DNA of 39,249 nt from Bacteroidaceae bacterium (GTDB lineage: Bacteria > Bacteroidota > Bacteroidia > Bacteroidales > Bacteroidaceae). Positions within the stretch are counted from its first letter, which is position 1. Each line of letters opens with the position of its first letter. The stretch lies in contig JAGCVH010000014.1 in NCBI GenBank assembly GCA_017962495.1, positions 1-39,249 of the forward strand, given 5' to 3'. Positions 12,150-37,685 of this stretch are shown in pieces. The translations under genes and the position numbers were made by a program. Below the pieces are notes generated by a model. The model was not told the origin of the DNA. It was given only the letters and a program-made list of their open reading frames with translations, and ran no database searches.

Positions 12150-12154
12150 ACCTT

Positions 12155-12215
12155 GAGACTTCGTCTCGAGCCTGCTCACGCTCGGCATTCTGAGAACGAG
12201 TTCTCGACTGCCCTC
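12155..12215 (-). repeat. Dispersed hairpin element, intergenic copy
   Basis: Read on the minus strand, it contains GAGGGCAG (12215-12208), 19 nt with a GAGAA/TTCTC hairpin (12205-12192), ATGCCGAG (12188-12181), CGTGAG (12180-12175) and a GAGAC-GAA-GTCTC hairpin (12167-12155). The same blocks at the same offsets occur inside the FAH-family gene near 37032-37091. A related hairpin sits at 12257-12275. Confidence 0.6.
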
Positions 12216-12244
12216 GCTTAATCGCAGCCTTCACCCTTCACCCT

Positions 12245-15001
12245 TCATCCTTCATCCTCGAGACTTTGTCTCGAGCCCGTCCGTTTGTAGTTCTCCTCCT
12301 CCTCGGCCTTCAGGCGGGCAGTAATCTCTTCGTGGCGGTCGAGGGCTATCTGGTGGGAGGCGAGCTGCATGAGCACGTCGCGTCGCTGGCGTTCCAGTTG
12401 CTTCTGCTGGCCTACAAGCGATTCCATGATGGCCGCCTCGTCGGTGCCCGACGGACGCATTCCTTCGGCCTGCAGGGCTACGATGGCGCTGCGTAAGGCA
12501 TCCACTCGAGACTCCTCGAGCATAGACTCGATGCGTAGGCTACGCACTTTCGTTCGTGTGGCATTCCAGTCCTTGTCGAGAGCGAAGGCACGCTGCAGTT
12601 CGGCGTATTGCACAGGCGGATGGTTGGCGTTGAAACTCCGCATCCAGATGTCCAGCTGTGAGCGTTCGCCAGCAACCTGCTCGTCGATGGCTTGGCATTG
12701 CCTGCTGAGTTCCTCTTGTTTTCCTTGCAGGGTGGCCAGGCGCACTTGGGCGTCGATGGTCTCGTCACGCAATTGCGACTCCTGTGACAGCACTTTTTGC
12801 AGTTGCTGGTAGTGGGTGGCAAAGTAGTCTTTCACCTCTGTCTCACCCAGCATGCGTTCGTAGTTCTTCTCTCCCTCCTTGCGTATGATGCGTCGGCGTT
12901 CGTTGTCCTCGCGCACTTGCAGGTTGAGCGAGTCCAGATAGGTGCATGACTGCTGTTTGTCGGTGAGTTGGGCTTGTGCCACTTCCTGCTGTCGTTGCAG
13001 TTGCTGGATGTCGTCGTTGAGGCGTTGCCAGTCCTCCATCATCTGCTGGATGCGCAGGCGCAGTGTCTCGGGATTCTCCAGCCATGTGGGATACCACTCG
13101 TTGATGGTGACAAGGTTGGTCAGGCGCTCGTAGAGGTGAGTGTATTCGTCTTGCAGGGCAGAGCGCGTCTGGCGTGTCTTCTCCACTTGTCGGGCAAGAA
13201 CCTGACAACTGGTGTTCACCTCATTGAGGCGCACCATGAGGTCGTTTTTCTGCTGTTCCTTGCGTGTGAGTTGCTCTGAGATGTCGTTGATGCGTGTCTG
13301 GTTGAAGTTGTAGTCGTCGAGTTCCTTCTGGGCGTCGTCGGCATCGTAGGCTGTGTTCTCGATGAGTTGTCGGAGTAGGGCTGTGCGTGCTTCCATGTTG
13401 GTGCTCGACGAGCATTCCTCGAAAGTGCGGTCGAGGGATGCGAACACTTGCCACTCGCGCACGTCCTCAATCTGGCGTTGGCGCAGGCGTGAGAGGGTCT
13501 CTTCCTCCACGTCGCGTCGCGAGGTCTGTGCCATCTGCTCGAGTTTGAGTTGTCGCAGTTGTTCCTCCTTGCTCGCAAGTTCGGCACTGAGCAGTTCGTA
13601 GTCGATGCGCAGGTCATTGATGAGCTGGCTTTGCTCGAGCATCGTGTCGCTGTGATAGGGATGGTGTGTAGCTCCGCAGACGGTGCAGGCAACGCCTTCC
13701 TGCAGGTCGCCTCGCAGCTGGATCACGTTCTGGCTCTTGCTCAGTGTGAGGGTGTATTCCTTCTCGTGGCAGAGCTGGCGCATAGGCACAACTTTGTCTT
13801 CGAGTTCGGAGATATTGAGCTTCAGGTTGTCGAGGCTGAGTCGGAGACGATTGACGGTTTGCGTCTTTTCCTCAATTAGGGCGTATCCCAGCTGTATGCG
13901 GTTCCATAGCGATTGGGCAGCAATGAGCATCTGCCGACGGCTCTTGAGTTGCATGGCTCTCTCCTGCAACGAATAACTGCTGCGTCCGAGGTTGTTCTGT
14001 CGGTGGAGGTGGAGTTCGGCGTTCAGGGATTTGATGTCGGATTCCACGTTCTGATAATCGGCAAAGACGCGGTTGAGCATGTTGTTCTCTTCCTGTTGTT
14101 GGCGCAATTCCTCGTCCTGTGTGCGTTGTTGGCGAGCCAGTTCCTCGCGCATCTCTTGCAAGCGGTCGAGCAAGGTCACCACCATGTCGCCACGTTCCAT
14201 CAGTTGCTGGTGAGGCTCCATTGCCTGTCGTTTGGTGCGTTGCTGGCCAATGACCTCCTGCAGGTTTTCGAGATGGCTCTCGAGTTCCTCCACTTCCTTT
14301 CCGAGGATGGTGCGTTGTTGGTTGAGGGATTCGAAGAGGCGTTCTGTGGATTGCTCGTCGAGGTCGAGGATGGTATTTGCTCCGATGATGCGGTTGGCCT
14401 CCTCCAGTTGGTCGCGTACGAGCATCATCTGCTTCGTGGCATCGTTGTGGTCGTCGCGCATCTGAGTGAGTTGCTTCTGGCACTCCTCGAACTGCTGTTT
14501 CGTCTCCTCTATGGTGGTTTGCAGGGTGCCTTGTGATTGTTTGTTGGCACGTGATTGCTTCTCGAGCAACGTCATGCGTTGGAACAATCCCTGGATGGTC
14601 TCGAAGAGCTCAAAGCGATTGAGTTCCTTCTCGTCGTTTGCCACCATGGCCAGTTGCTTGTTGACTTCATAGAGGCGGTTGCGATGCTCTGTGAGCTCGT
14701 GTTTCTTCTCGTTGAAGCGGTGGAGCCATTCCTGTTGGTCGTGGACACGCTGGAGCGAGGATTCAATGTTGCGAAGCTTCGTCTCAGCCAGTCGGCGTGC
14801 ATCTTCAATGCGAGCCATCTTCTGAGGACTGAGCAGAGCGCTTGCCACATTCAGGCGTCGAGCCTCTGTGCGCACCATCTTGCGTATCTCCACAGCCACT
14901 TCATCGGGCATGGGCTCGTGAAAGTGCTCTTGCCACCATTCTTGATTGATAACGTCGTTGGAAGTATCGGGCGTTGTGTTCTGATTTTCGAGTTCTTGCA
15001 T
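12245..15001 (-). CDS. SbcC/Rad50-like zinc-hook coiled-coil protein without ATPase heads
   Basis: The 918-aa protein is almost wholly heptad-rich coiled coil (E, Q, R and L rich). A zinc-hook motif CTVCGATHHP lies at its midpoint (Cys439, Cys442), as in SbcC/Rad50 where CxxC joins two molecules through Zn2+. The C-terminal part (DEAAIMESLVGQQKQLERQRRDVL) resembles the end of the E. coli SbcC coil. Unlike SbcC (about 1000-1200 aa), it has no N-terminal Walker A loop and no C-terminal LSGGE/Walker B head. Upstream lies a promoter and divergent hisS, and downstream lie repeats, so no head-coding DNA was split off. No sbcD is adjacent. The last residues (GSRQSLEDEG) are encoded by a dispersed hairpin repeat. 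Function is unknown; tethering or bridging is conjecture. Confidence 0.75.
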   Translation of the reverse strand: MQELENQNTTPDTSNDVINQEWWQEHFHEPMPDEVAVEIRKMVRTEARRLNVASALLSPQKMARIEDARRLAETKLRNIESSLQRVHDQQEWLHRFNEKKHELTEHRNRLYEVNKQLAMVANDEKELNRFELFETIQGLFQRMTLLEKQSRANKQSQGTLQTTIEETKQQFEECQKQLTQMRDDHNDATKQMMLVRDQLEEANRIIGANTILDLDEQSTERLFESLNQQRTILGKEVEELESHLENLQEVIGQQRTKRQAMEPHQQLMERGDMVVTLLDRLQEMREELARQQRTQDEELRQQQEENNMLNRVFADYQNVESDIKSLNAELHLHRQNNLGRSSYSLQERAMQLKSRRQMLIAAQSLWNRIQLGYALIEEKTQTVNRLRLSLDNLKLNISELEDKVVPMRQLCHEKEYTLTLSKSQNVIQLRGDLQEGVACTVCGATHHPYHSDTMLEQSQLINDLRIDYELLSAELASKEEQLRQLKLEQMAQTSRRDVEEETLSRLRQRQIEDVREWQVFASLDRTFEECSSSTNMEARTALLRQLIENTAYDADDAQKELDDYNFNQTRINDISEQLTRKEQQKNDLMVRLNEVNTSCQVLARQVEKTRQTRSALQDEYTHLYERLTNLVTINEWYPTWLENPETLRLRIQQMMEDWQRLNDDIQQLQRQQEVAQAQLTDKQQSCTYLDSLNLQVREDNERRRIIRKEGEKNYERMLGETEVKDYFATHYQQLQKVLSQESQLRDETIDAQVRLATLQGKQEELSRQCQAIDEQVAGERSQLDIWMRSFNANHPPVQYAELQRAFALDKDWNATRTKVRSLRIESMLEESRVDALRSAIVALQAEGMRPSGTDEAAIMESLVGQQKQLERQRRDVLMQLASHQIALDRHEEITARLKAEEEENYKRTGSRQSLEDEG
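12257..12275. repeat. Hairpin repeat within the 3' end of the SbcC-like gene
   Basis: CTCGAGAC and GTCTCGAG flank a TTT loop, giving a perfect 8-bp stem. It is related to the GAGAC/GTCTC hairpin at 12155-12167. It lies inside the last codons of the SbcC-like ORF, followed toward the stop by GGATGAA-type tandem repeats that supply the TGA. Confidence 0.6.
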
Positions 15002-30005: not shown

Positions 30006-30037
30006 TTTGGTCAATCCGGATAAATATCGTACCTTTA
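30006..30037 (+). promoter_or_regulatory. Upstream promoter of the rplM-tsf cluster (P2)
   Basis: TTTG (30006-30009), a 20-bp spacer and TACCTTTA (30030-30037) fit the consensus except the last base of the -7 box. Transcripts from here would carry about 75 nt more leader than those from P1. Confidence 0.5.
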
Positions 30038-30080
30038 AACTACGTTTTTAGGTACTTTCGCTCGGAAATACACAAAAATA

Positions 30081-30112
30081 TTTGGTATTTCGCTCACTTA
30101 TTCGTACCTTTG
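30081..30112 (+). promoter_or_regulatory. Main promoter of the rplM-tsf cluster (P1)
   Basis: TTTG (30081-30084), a 20-bp spacer and TACCTTTG (30105-30112) form a perfect Bacteroidetes promoter. It gives a leader of about 130 nt to the rplM start at 30252. Confidence 0.8.
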
Positions 30113-35267: not shown

Positions 35268-35393
35268 TACGAAGCGCAAGGCCAATTGGTCTTGCGCTTT
35301 TTTTTGTAGCCCCCTCCCGTCCTCCCCCAAGGGGGAGGAGTGGAATATTCTTTAGTCATTTTATTTTTATTTCAAAATTAATCGTTATATTTG
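35268..35393 (+). repeat. 126-bp duplicated terminator/palindrome/promoter block, copy A
   Basis: It matches 36187-36311 with only a few differences. In order it holds the hairpin terminator (35272-35305), the CCTCCCCC-AA-GGGGGAGG palindrome (about 35321-35338), an AT-rich tract, and a TATATTTG -7 box (35386-35393) just before the first nucleotidyltransferase gene. Confidence 0.85.
35272..35305 (+). terminator. Terminator of the secreted-protein/peptide transcript (copy A)
   Basis: AAGCGCAAGGCC and GGTCTTGCGC form a long stem (with one G-U pair) over an AATT loop, followed by eight T. It is a very strong intrinsic terminator. Confidence 0.9.
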
Positions 35394-35409
35394 CAGGCGA
35401 ATAGTAAGT

Positions 35410-35742
35410 ATGATAAGAATGGAATCATATAATTTGAATCAGGTACTTGTAAAGCAAGGAGTGGATGCTGTCCTGCAAGGGAAAGCGGGCGCACAAGCCA
35501 TATTGTTTGGCTCTCGGGCACGTGGCGATGCACGTGAGGACTCGGATTGGGATGTGCTTATCCTTCTTGATAAAGAGCGTATCACACAAGCCGACATGGA
35601 CGAGATTTCCTATCCTATCCGTGAATTGGGATGGACGCTCAACGAGATGATAAACCCCATCATGTTCACCAAGGCAGAGTGGGAAAAGAAGAGCTTTACT
35701 CCATTTTACAAAAACGTAACAAGTGAGGGCATCGTAATATGA
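35410..35742 (+). CDS. MNT-type nucleotidyltransferase (pair 1)
   Basis: The 110-aa protein is a minimal nucleotidyltransferase with the polymerase-beta signature GSRARGDAREDSDWD (Gly34-Ser35; metal-binding Asp46 and Asp48). Such proteins pair with HEPN-domain partners as toxin-antitoxin-type modules, in some of which the MNT AMPylates and silences the HEPN RNase. An alternative ATG lies at 35419. Its stop overlaps the next gene by 4 bp. It is preceded by copy A of the 126-bp block, which carries the likely promoter. Confidence 0.88.
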   Translation: MIRMESYNLNQVLVKQGVDAVLQGKAGAQAILFGSRARGDAREDSDWDVLILLDKERITQADMDEISYPIRELGWTLNEMINPIMFTKAEWEKKSFTPFYKNVTSEGIVI

Positions 35743-36167
35743 GTCTAACAGCAGAAGAACGCAAGGCCGTTGTCGAATTCCGTATTGAGAAAGCGCGTCG
35801 TGCCTACGAACAGGCATGTGGCGTCATTGGCCTTAAGTATTGGGAGACCGTTGCCAATCGGCTCTATTATGCTGCATACAATGCTGTCTCTGCTTTGTTG
35901 ATAGCTAATAAAGACACGGCACAGTCCCATAGTGGTGTTATCCATCTGTTCGGTCTTCGTTTCATCAAAACTGGTATATTGGAAGCCGAACAAGGACGCC
36001 TGTACCATAATCTTTTTTCTAAGCGTTTGACGGGTGATTACGACGACACGTATGGTCTAACCGAAGAGGACGTAATCCCCCTTGTGGAGCCAACGGGCAA
36101 ATTTATAGACCGAGTGATATCTTTGGCTGAGGAACTTATAAATGATTCTCTGACATCTGAAAGCTAA
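35739..36167 (+). CDS. HEPN-domain protein (pair 1)
   Basis: The 142-aa protein has HEPN helices with the pattern NRLYYAAYNAVSALL (about residues 40-54), SHSGVIHLFG and KRLTGDYDD, as in PF05168-type HEPN proteins encoded next to MNT genes. It starts in an ATGA overlap with the nucleotidyltransferase. A canonical R-X4-6-H RNase motif is not obvious, so toxicity is uncertain. It differs clearly from the DUF86/HepT partner of pair 2, so the two modules are not simple duplicates of each other. Confidence 0.82.
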   Translation: MSLTAEERKAVVEFRIEKARRAYEQACGVIGLKYWETVANRLYYAAYNAVSALLIANKDTAQSHSGVIHLFGLRFIKTGILEAEQGRLYHNLFSKRLTGDYDDTYGLTEEDVIPLVEPTGKFIDRVISLAEELINDSLTSES

Positions 36168-36186
36168 TCAGTATTGATAGATATTC

Positions 36187-36311
36187 TACGAAGCGCAAGG
36201 CCAATATGGTCTTGCGCTTCTTTGTAGCCCCCTCCCGTCCTCCCCCAAGGGGGAGGAGTAGAATATTCTTTAGTCATTTTATTTTTATTTCAAAATTAAT
36301 CGTTATATTTG
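36187..36311 (+). repeat. Duplicated terminator/palindrome/promoter block, copy B
   Basis: It is nearly identical to 35268-35393. The hairpin persists, but the T-run is interrupted (TTCTTT instead of eight T), so termination may be leakier. TATATTTG lies at 36304-36311, 26 bp before the second nucleotidyltransferase gene. Confidence 0.85.
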
Positions 36312-36337
36312 TGGGCGGATAACTAAAAAGTTTTGCT

Positions 36338-36637
36338 ATGGCTACACAGGAAATGATTCATACCATTGCCGAATACTTCAAGACGCAACCCGTAGTGAGG
36401 GCATGGCTCTTTGGTTCTTATTCGCGTGGGGAGCAAAATGAAAATAGCGATGTTGATATCATGGTTACTCTTGATCATGAGAAACCTATCGGGCTTCGTT
36501 ATTTTGGAATGGTTTTGGATCTGGAAAGCCTGCTTCATCGTCAGGTCGATCTTGTAGAGGAGGGGCAGCTCATGCCTTTTGCACAGCCTACAGCGGAAAG
36601 AGATAAAATATTGATATATGAGAGAGCCAATTCGTGA
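36338..36637 (+). CDS. mntA: MntA-like nucleotidyltransferase antitoxin (pair 2)
   Basis: The 99-aa protein contains the MNT signature GSYSRGEQNENSDVDI (Gly26-Ser27; Asp38, Asp40). In characterised MntA/HepT systems MntA attaches AMP to the tyrosine of the HepT R-X4-H-X-Y motif and so neutralises its RNase. The next gene starts 20 bp inside this one, with exactly that motif. The likely promoter is in copy B of the repeat. Confidence 0.88.
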   Translation: MATQEMIHTIAEYFKTQPVVRAWLFGSYSRGEQNENSDVDIMVTLDHEKPIGLRYFGMVLDLESLLHRQVDLVEEGQLMPFAQPTAERDKILIYERANS

Positions 36638-36977
36638 TTTAGGTCGTTTGGAGCATATTCTGGAACAAATAGATAATGCTGAAGAGTTTGTTGCAGGCAA
36701 GTCTTTGGTTGATTTGCAGGGCGACAAGGTACTTCAGTATGCTTTAATAAAAAGTATAGAAATAATAGGTGAGGCTTCTTATATGCTTTCACTGGAGTTT
36801 AAGGAGCAACATACAGATGTCGCGTGGAATCAAATTATCAAGATGCGACATGTACTTGTACATGGCTATTATCATATTTCTTTGCCAGTTGTATGGAGTA
36901 TAGTTCACGACGATCTTCCCCAGTTGCGCCCATATATCGTCCAGTATATTGAGGAACTGCGCAAAGGTCAGTCTTGA
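36618..36977 (+). CDS. hepT: HepT-like HEPN RNase toxin (DUF86, pair 2)
   Basis: The 119-aa all-helical protein has the catalytic motif RHVLVHGY (Arg77-X4-His82-X-Tyr84) of HepT RNases. Tyr84 is the expected AMPylation target of the upstream MNT. IKSIEIIGEAS is the conserved DUF86 helix. The 20-bp overlap with mntA implies coupled translation. The FAH-family gene follows by only 15 bp, so read-through into FAH and porU is possible. Confidence 0.9.
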   Translation: MREPIRDLGRLEHILEQIDNAEEFVAGKSLVDLQGDKVLQYALIKSIEIIGEASYMLSLEFKEQHTDVAWNQIIKMRHVLVHGYYHISLPVVWSIVHDDLPQLRPYIVQYIEELRKGQS

Positions 36978-36992
36978 TGTATATAATTCTTT

Positions 36993-37685
36993 ATGAAGAT
37001 ATTCGCCGTTGGAATGAATTACCCGAGCAGTGAGGGCAGAACGGAGTTTACTTCGGTTATGCCGAGTCGTGAGGGTGAAGGAACGAAGTTCAATTACCAG
37101 GAGCACAATAAAGAGCTCGGTAATACGTTATTAAATATAGAGGAGCCCGTCATCTTTACCAAGGCCGACTCGGCGTTGCTAACTGGAGGGAAACCCTTCT
37201 TCGTGCCTGAGTTCACGAAACGATGCGACTACGAGACGGAACTGGTGGTGAGAATATGCCGACTGGGACGAAGCATTGCCCGGCGTTGGGCGCATCGCTA
37301 TTACGACCAGGTGACGGTGGGCATCGACTTCACGGCTCGTGACTTGCAACAACAGTTGCGTGCGAAAGGATTGCCTTGGGAGATCTCGAAAGGGTTCGAC
37401 GGCAGTGCTGTGATAGGGGAGATGCAACCGCTTGCTGATTACGCCGACGTGCAAGACTTGCACTTCCAGCTCGATAAGAATGGAGAGACGGTGCAAAGCG
37501 GACATACTGCCGACATGATACACGGGGTGGATGAAATCGTCTCGTACATCAGTCGTTTCTTCACGTTGAAGATGGGCGACCTCATATTCACGGGAACCCC
37601 GGTGGGCGTAGGCCCTGTCAAGGAAGGCGACCATCTGGAGGGTTACCTCGAAGGAAAGAAAGTGTTGGAGTTTAATGTGCGGTGA
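36993..37685 (+). CDS. Fumarylacetoacetate hydrolase family protein with 25-residue insertion
   Basis: The 230-aa protein has the FAH fold hallmarks DYETELVV, GIDFTARDLQ, KGFDGSAVIGE, and the C-terminal GDLIFTGTPVGVGPVKEGD. Family members hydrolyse or decarboxylate beta-diketo or acylpyruvate compounds; the substrate is not evident. The N-terminal motif, normally a continuous GMNY...HNKEL, is split by residues 11-35 (PSSEGR...TKFNY), a 75-bp in-frame insertion flanked by AATTACC. porU follows by 64 bp. Confidence 0.88.
   Translation: MKIFAVGMNYPSSEGRTEFTSVMPSREGEGTKFNYQEHNKELGNTLLNIEEPVIFTKADSALLTGGKPFFVPEFTKRCDYETELVVRICRLGRSIARRWAHRYYDQVTVGIDFTARDLQQQLRAKGLPWEISKGFDGSAVIGEMQPLADYADVQDLHFQLDKNGETVQSGHTADMIHGVDEIVSYISRFFTLKMGDLIFTGTPVGVGPVKEGDHLEGYLEGKKVLEFNVR
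37017..37098 (+). repeat. 75-bp in-frame insertion with duplicated target in the FAH gene
   Basis: AATTACC occurs at 37017-37023 and 37092-37098, exactly 75 bp apart; the similarity extends to AATTACC.(G)GAGCA. The inserted DNA has GAGGGCAG (37032), ATGCCGAG (37059), CGTGAG (37068) and a GAAC-GAA-GTTC hairpin (37081-37091), matching the element at 12155-12215. Removing it restores a GMNYQEHNKEL junction. Confidence 0.7.

Follow-up and report, generated by a model that had tools for sequence, protein, structure and literature searches.

The insert in the FAH-family gene

The window, meaning the whole stretch of 39,249 nucleotides analysed (contig JAGCVH010000014.1 of a Bacteroidaceae bacterium), carries a gene for a fumarylacetoacetate hydrolase-like (FAH-family) protein whose residues 31-229 match PF01557 (Pfam, E=1.9e-43). 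Direct reading of the sequence gives its N-terminus as MKIFAVGMNY-PSSEGRTEFTSVMPSREGEGTKFNY-QEHNKEL, with 25 codons added in frame after GMNY. A perfect 7-bp direct repeat, AATTACC, is found on both sides of the added segment with its copies 75 bp apart, as a preliminary description of this DNA had stated. The insert duplicates the codons for N-Y, so that NYxEHNKEL, a conserved motif, is restored on its downstream side. The target repeat itself supplies part of the outer stem of this copy (Table 1). In an AlphaFold2 model obtained with 47 sequences, residues 11-35 are the sole stretch of at least three residues with pLDDT below 50; elsewhere, residues 41-50 average 56 and later blocks average 79-97.

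Table 1. Positions of the FAH-family gene, its insert and other element copies in the window
Feature	Position	Strand	Evidence and remarks
FAH-family gene, 230 aa, insert after codon 10	36993..37685	+	PF01557 and orthologues
Target-site repeat AATTACC, left copy	37017..37023	+	Sequence reading; period 75
Target-site repeat AATTACC, right copy, restoring NYQEHNKEL	37092..37098	+	Sequence reading; insert-free L039 and L071 read MKIFAVGMNYQEHNKEL
B-type element body, 68 bp	37024..37091	+	R1 36.5 bits (outside training set); R2 92.7 bits (inside training set)
Outer stem, left half TTACCC, mostly target repeat	37019..37024	+	Pairs with GGGTGA at 37073-37078, one T-G wobble; covarying helix 1 (alignments A2, A4)
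Outer stem, right half GGGTGA	37073..37078	+	Pairs with TTACCC at 37019-37024
Central variable hairpin GCA..TGC	37036..37062	+	Helix 2, 94.8% of cells paired in alignment A4
3' hairpin GAAC-GAA-GTTC, abutting the right AATTACC	37081..37091	+	Helix 3, 97.1% of cells paired in alignment A4
A-type copy, intergenic	12151..12232	-	R1 97.2 bits; inside R1 training set
Degenerate or incomplete copy, consisting of an outer arm and the 3' hairpin, at the ORF 12245-15001 C-terminus	12256..12311	-	Weak: 23.2 bits, with E=5e-4 for the window and 0.04 for the whole genome
Promoter-type (P) copy, full length, AAAGGTACGA repeat flanking both sides	30032..30111	-	56.7 bits

The genes upstream (35410-36977) code for a nucleotidyltransferase, a HEPN protein and a HepT-like protein, in MNT-HEPN toxin-antitoxin-like modules, and a 104-bp repeat, 95% identical, is placed at 35300-35403 and 36218-36321. 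Within the FAH gene, codons 13-16 (CAC AAT AAA GAG) and 20-22 (ACG TTA TTA), at window positions 37104-37131, have nearly invariant synonymous sites among 60 Bacteroidales orthologues (AAT in 59/60, AAA in 51/52, ACG in 28/28 and TTA in 43/44). The motif CACAATAAAGAG-N10-CGTTAT, allowing one mismatch, occurs at 45 places in 43 of 81 genomes, and 42 of those places are within FAH matches. The gene seems to be overlapped at 37104-37131 by a DNA- or RNA-level signal.

A dispersed family of hairpin elements

On sequence comparison, the 75-bp FAH insert is assigned to a large dispersed family of hairpin elements of about 68-82 bp. The preliminary description had pointed to an intergenic relative at 12155-12215; the relative exists, its extent is longer than proposed and it lies on the minus strand. 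The shared features listed there hold: blocks GAGGGCAG, ATGCCGAG and ACGAAGT fall at identical offsets in both copies (0, 27 and 51), CGTGAG is one position apart (36 in the FAH copy, 35 in the intergenic one), and both 3' hairpins have a GAA loop, closed by GAAC/GTTC in the FAH copy and by GAGAC/GTCTC in the intergenic copy.

BLAST with the two window copies located about fifteen more places in the genome at E<=0.003. Two covariance models were then used, R1 from 12 aligned full copies, with the FAH copy left out and the window intergenic copy included, and R2 from nine copies of subtype B (see below), the FAH copy among them. R1 finds the FAH copy at E=1.5e-5 in the whole genome and at 2e-7 in the window. 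E-values here and in the searches below are rough by the tool's own statement, and the larger searches were run with stricter filters and a limit on the candidates scored. The genome search suggested in the preliminary description returned 75 places at E<=0.01 in the source genome and hits in 48 of the 50 genomes from the same genus, the source genome counted in. From 151 genomes sampled across the family Bacteroidaceae, 71 match R1 at E<=1e-6, with 19 of 30 genera represented. With R2, 38 genomes of the genus out of 41 have a match at E<=0.001. Rfam 15 at the gathering threshold gave no match in 13 element loci, and the FAH copy had no match in the phage collection.

Copies also occur in head-to-tail arrays with a period of 73-77, and B copies are found nested in P copies, flanked at either end by CAAATTT, in the source genome and at three loci of relatives (L387, L170 and L365).

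Subtypes and covariation of the arms

Three subtypes, named by us A, B and P, were distinguished. Subtype A reads AAGGCTGCGATTAAGCGAG..hairpin..CGAGCGTGAGCAGGCTCGA followed by the 3' hairpin; in subtype B the order is GGAGCAGCGAG..hairpin..CCGAGTCGTGA, then an arm and the 3' hairpin; and subtype P reads AAAGNTACGAATAAGCGAG..CAAAT..ATTTG.., its left end being TANCTTT on the opposite strand. The preliminary description is refined accordingly: the FAH copy is of subtype B and its intergenic relative of subtype A, while the third subtype is found at gene starts.

RNAalifold folds the 12 full copies into a single long, imperfect hairpin; of its 19 pairs, 10 show changes on both sides. The alignment of nine B copies has 86.6% of its cells paired vs 68.2% when shuffled. 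Covariation was measured on a model-fitted set of 61 matches (59 distinct; 42 sources), in which the training copies and a number of A and P copies are included; its score of 0.658 compares with 0.182 for shuffled alignments and at most 0.137 for slid controls. Two-sided changes fill 334 cells of this set and one-sided changes 14. The outer arms pair mutually yet differ from copy to copy: 33 distinct left arms are present among 59 aligned copies, and an arm pairs with its own partner at 5.41 of 7 positions on average vs 3.26 with the partners of other copies. The A-type arms are AAGGCTGC/GCAGGCT. Unpaired cells number 129 of 1202, and G-T (17) barely exceeds A-C (11); therefore, pairing looks kept at the DNA level. 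We infer that the palindrome is maintained as DNA and that its arms would change jointly, as by quasi-palindrome correction or replacement, and not by slow RNA compensation.

Promoter-type copies

A gene start, taken as an ATG opening a long frame, lies leftward within 250 bp of 40 of the 41 P copies (median distance 37) and rightward of 13, whereas gene starts are evenly distributed around A copies (39/74 and 41/74). The -7 TA and the next TTTG are 19 or 20 apart in 33 of the 41. P copies were selected by their -7-like left end, and hence the independent evidence consists of the gene starts and the spacing. Both suggest that P copies act as promoters or lie within promoters, and a regulatory role for them is possible.

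Insertion signature

Identity of at least 7 bp between left and right flanks was found at 31 of the 69 own-genome copies with usable flanks, vs 10.5% for flanks taken from different copies. When relatives are added, 94 of 214 distinct copies have such a repeat vs 11.4% in mismatched flanks; the positives include tandem and heptamer arrays, which inflate the count, and the remaining 120 copies lack a repeat of this length. A second refinement of the preliminary description is that flanking repeats, where seen, are of at least 7 bp. They differ in length (from 7 bp to 16 bp or longer) and in position relative to the left arm. Repeats such as AATGGTGA and CATTGAA lie outside the arm; others run into it and are up to 14-16 bp long (AAGGATGCGGCTAT in L368, AAGGTTGCGATTAAGT in L344). 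A derivation of the outer stem from the target in every case was considered and rejected, and a role of the stem as target guide is not general either: the near-identical A-type copies L014 and L015 share their arms and have different flanking repeats.

Runs of at least 10 at a lag of 7 are present in 21 of 366 element flanks (5.7%) vs 2 of 412 controls taken 300 bp away (0.5%), and lag-14 runs in 4.4% of flanks vs none of the controls; these controls are often coding sequence, so that coding status was unmatched. Among the lags from 3 to 15 that were tested, none besides these two showed a comparable excess in the element flanks. Heptamer arrays, such as those of TTCACCC, adjoin elements for example at window positions 12220-12260. 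The arrays may be either preferred targets of the elements or footprints of 7-bp duplications.

Several copies (L344 and, in the source genome, C95:9805-9874, C90:28077-28157 and C19:18375-18454) sit exactly at gene ends reading GKKVVIK-stop-like, which resemble C-terminal sorting signals of type IX secretion. The flanking repeat of L344 spans the stop codon.

Copies inside genes

In-frame copies were found in the source genome in the genes for FAH, Vsr, a DHDPS-family protein and methionyl-tRNA formyltransferase (Fmt), and in relatives in those for precorrin methylase, glutamate synthase (GltB), phosphoglucomutase, iron alcohol dehydrogenase (Fe-ADH), GNAT and others. The list for relatives holds 42 open frames with at least 110 residues outside the element, many of which, particularly the antisense frames, are unlikely to be genes. 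In a Pfam scan of 10 insert-bearing proteins (3 from the source genome, 7 from relatives) 8 have the insert within a domain or at its edge, and two, the Fic and HipA-like proteins, have it outside the matched part. Glutamate synthase with the insert has 365 residues on 339 profile positions.

The DHDPS-like gene is free of the family copy in 28 of the 29 relatives read, some of which have other, shorter length changes at the site (e.g. L287-L291); in the remaining one, G026 (L286), a different copy lies 5-6 codons upstream. Of the 44 relatives matching the formyltransferase, 29 were retrieved and 28 had a readable C-terminal part; all 28 lack the insert, which sits in a linker of variable length. 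Other short in-frame repeats occur in L287, L266, L267 and L275: palindromes resembling CCCTCCCTTTAAGGGAGGG (SLPLREG, SLPLKGEG) and, in the linker of the formyltransferase, tandem repeats.

The periods from repeat to repeat leave remainders of 0, 1 and 2 on division by 3 in 35, 32 and 27 copies. Frame keeping as a built-in property of element length is thus unsupported; since the periods are unbiased, it is what selection leaves and not a trait of every copy. The fraction of open frames exceeds that of plain shuffles in some A and B frames (at best 0.76 vs 0.36 and 0.57 vs 0.35), while one frame of A copies is below shuffles (0.18). About 25-28 residues can be added in frame because some frames are often free of stops and about one third of the measured copies have a period that is a multiple of 3. 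Among five B copies examined in genes, four (L377, L379, L382 and L390) are read in a frame that the FAH copy does not use, because its GAGCAGTGAG holds a stop there; L393 differs.

Empty and filled sites in FAH orthologues

The 117 FAH loci collected, some of them the same place from two collections, yielded 116 readable N-termini and 106 distinct proteins including that of the window. The preliminary description had proposed to look for the absence of the 25 residues in orthologues, and 103 of the 106 proteins have no insert after NY. They include L064, the closest named orthologue (94% identical over residues 34-230; uncultured Bacteroidales assembly RUG14659). The family insert is present in the window gene and in L065, where a diverged copy at the same site has a changed hairpin (GCGGAGCTTGCTTCGGC for ACGGAGTTTACTTCGGT) and its own perfect repeat, AACTATC. 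L065 has a second in-frame copy downstream in the same gene, in opposite orientation and flanked on both sides by ACCCGTAATCTT. At this second place L249 and L251 have short in-frame pieces (GCTCGACGAAGTCAA) that by eye resemble the 3' hairpin of the element, and pieces with poorer likeness are found in L250, L252 and L253. The last of the three proteins, L082 (835-1524), has another insert of 24-25 aa at the identical site, also ending in NY, which matches R2 marginally (15.5 bits, E=0.006 in 6.6 kb) and had no R1 match at E<=0.01 in a search over 60 loci; it may be a degenerate copy or something else.

Between the window gene and L065, dS is 1.41 and dN 0.13 over the last 537 nt, and between their inserts pS is 0.27 and pN 0.23, on only 15.7 synonymous sites. 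These values suggest little protein constraint on the insert, whose age may be below that of the gene split; against a younger insert counts that synonymous changes are scarce too in the 45 nt directly after it (0.5 on 7.7 sites), which belong to a stretch constrained in all relatives. As the nearest orthologue, L064, is empty and the more distant L065 is filled, the history of the insert is not a simple single gain. Two separate insertions at one site would fit the data, as might transfer or loss.

Nature of the elements and a model for their insertion

The elements are dispersed, many have direct repeats, their arms covary, copies are nested and orthologous sites in relatives are empty, filled and empty sites being compared between species and mobility being read from that comparison. 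The proposal of a family of small mobile-like hairpin elements that enter genes in frame is supported by the empty orthologous sites and the many further copies. We consider it highly probable that these are small, non-coding, non-autonomous mobile hairpin elements of Prevotella-like Bacteroidaceae, moved by a putative enzyme acting in trans and tolerated when inserted in frame. In the model, an enzyme supplied in trans would make a staggered cut in the target, offset by about 7 bp, and insert the folded element, and gap filling would then yield the direct repeats. The 25-28 or so residues gained by a protein would form a floppy loop that is tolerated. It is probably as selfish DNA that the element persists, selection removing those insertions that break the frame.

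A RAYT was rejected as the general mobilising enzyme. Y1_Tnp (PF01797) gave no match in the source genome and is absent from 44 of the 50 genus genomes (E<=1e-5, the assemblies being incomplete), and also from genomes rich in R1 matches such as G045 (56), G000 (66) and G033 (82).

Two other accounts of the movement are possible, and we regard each as tentative. In one, the copies would be MITEs, miniature derivatives of an insertion sequence with a DDE transposase and a 7-bp target duplication. This would account for the perfect repeats of 7-8 bp at or beside the ends of several A-type copies (AATGGTGA, AATGAAG, CATTGAA, AAGGGTT), and in one copy, L014, the ends AGGCTGCG/CGCAGCCT are similar by eye over a short length. 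However, a consistent terminal inverted repeat was not seen, the left arm differs between copies, and the longer repeats, up to 16 bp, overlap the arm. In the other, about equally tentative, a structure-recognising recombinase (either a tyrosine recombinase like that acting on integron attC sites or an enzyme related to the integrases of conjugative transposons) would insert a folded single strand through a short overlap common to element and target. The conserved scaffold with its outer stem and variable terminal hairpin and the head-to-tail arrays agree with it, as do targets that resemble the left arm (AAGGCTGCG, AAAGCTGC, AAGGTTGCGATTAAGT) and the P-type left arm, which on the opposite strand is GTANCTTTG, presumably the CTnDOT attB core. 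Yet identical repeats on both sides would be an unusual product unless the overlap must match, and A-type copies have unrelated repeats outside their arms.

A bolder version is rather unlikely. It would make the family a mobile recombination site devoid of cassettes: an enzyme that recognises structure would insert the folded single strand at a 7-bp staggered cut, and the outer stem would be made or chosen by pairing with the target. Repeated arrival and loss would leave 7-bp tandem arrays, while copies would serve as in-frame linkers inside genes and as ready-made -33/-7 promoters at gene starts; if true, proteins and promoters would have been reshaped by it across a whole bacterial family.

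It is very improbable that the hairpins are regulatory RNA elements (terminators, attenuators or leader RNAs) spread by descent, to which the FAH insert bears an accidental likeness. The strong stems and the P copies at gene starts would fit, but empty orthologous sites, direct repeats, nested copies and in-frame copies within enzymes do not; the G-T and A-C counts give no clear RNA-strand signature, and R1, built without the FAH copy, still finds it. Least credible of all is a natural, lineage-specific loop in the FAH protein with no insertion, for which the segments of L065 and L082 at the same place and small length changes farther along in other orthologues might speak, against the perfect repeat, the 103 proteins lacking the segment, the low pLDDT confined to it and its membership in the family by the covariance model (rough E=1.5e-5).

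Relation to known systems

In the accessible parts of two articles, the palindromic elements of Rickettsia and Wolbachia are described as small palindromic repeats in frame inside unrelated genes, with a length given as 100-150 bp or about 150 bp for those of Rickettsiales (RPE) (PMC10969869; PMC3767692). Compared by description and not by sequence, the elements described here share with them the in-frame copies within protein-coding genes. They differ in order (Bacteroidales), in length, about 68-82 bp being outside the 100-150 bp range, and in scaffold; direct repeats at many copies and promoter-type, nested and head-to-tail copies are further features of the present family. By analogy, the best reading of the family is that of a Bacteroidales counterpart of the Rickettsia palindromic elements, RPE being the nearest to it in behaviour.

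Dispersed small palindromes and tandem copies are also typical of REP/REPIN with RAYT, from which the present family differs in the lack of Y1_Tnp (source genome and 44/50), in its copies inside genes and in the direct repeats at insertion. Integron attC sites have an outer stem, an inner stem and a variable terminal hairpin, form arrays and have arms with a GTTRRRY core. The likeness to them is one of outline, a folded site with a variable terminal structure and arrays, whereas here the 73-77 bp unit has no cassette gene, copies are scattered inside genes and the A-type arms, AAGGCTGC/GCAGGCT, appear not to be of that kind. Target duplications are general for MITEs and are seen here too (94/214 vs 11.4%; AATTACC in FAH); constant terminal inverted repeats were not seen, and variable covarying hairpins are present instead. 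MITEs, as short non-coding mobile DNA, are known from the same bacterial order, in Porphyromonas gingivalis, from what is accessible of PMC4596501. In the literature searched, which left out most subscription papers, a hairpin family of this kind in Prevotella or Bacteroidales is not described; the palindromic structured-RNA candidates from Bacteroidetes reported in the accessible part of PMC8040213 may include it.

In-frame colonisation of genes by palindromic DNA, as described for Rickettsia and Wolbachia in the portions available of PMC10969869 and PMC3767692, appears here as a large process in Bacteroidales. For annotation, recurring segments of 25-28 aa, such as KAAIKRE...EREQAR, should be taken as translated repeats and not as protein domains. 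The P-type copies suggest a route of promoter turnover. As related species offer both empty and filled sites, insertion, tolerance and loss can be studied directly.
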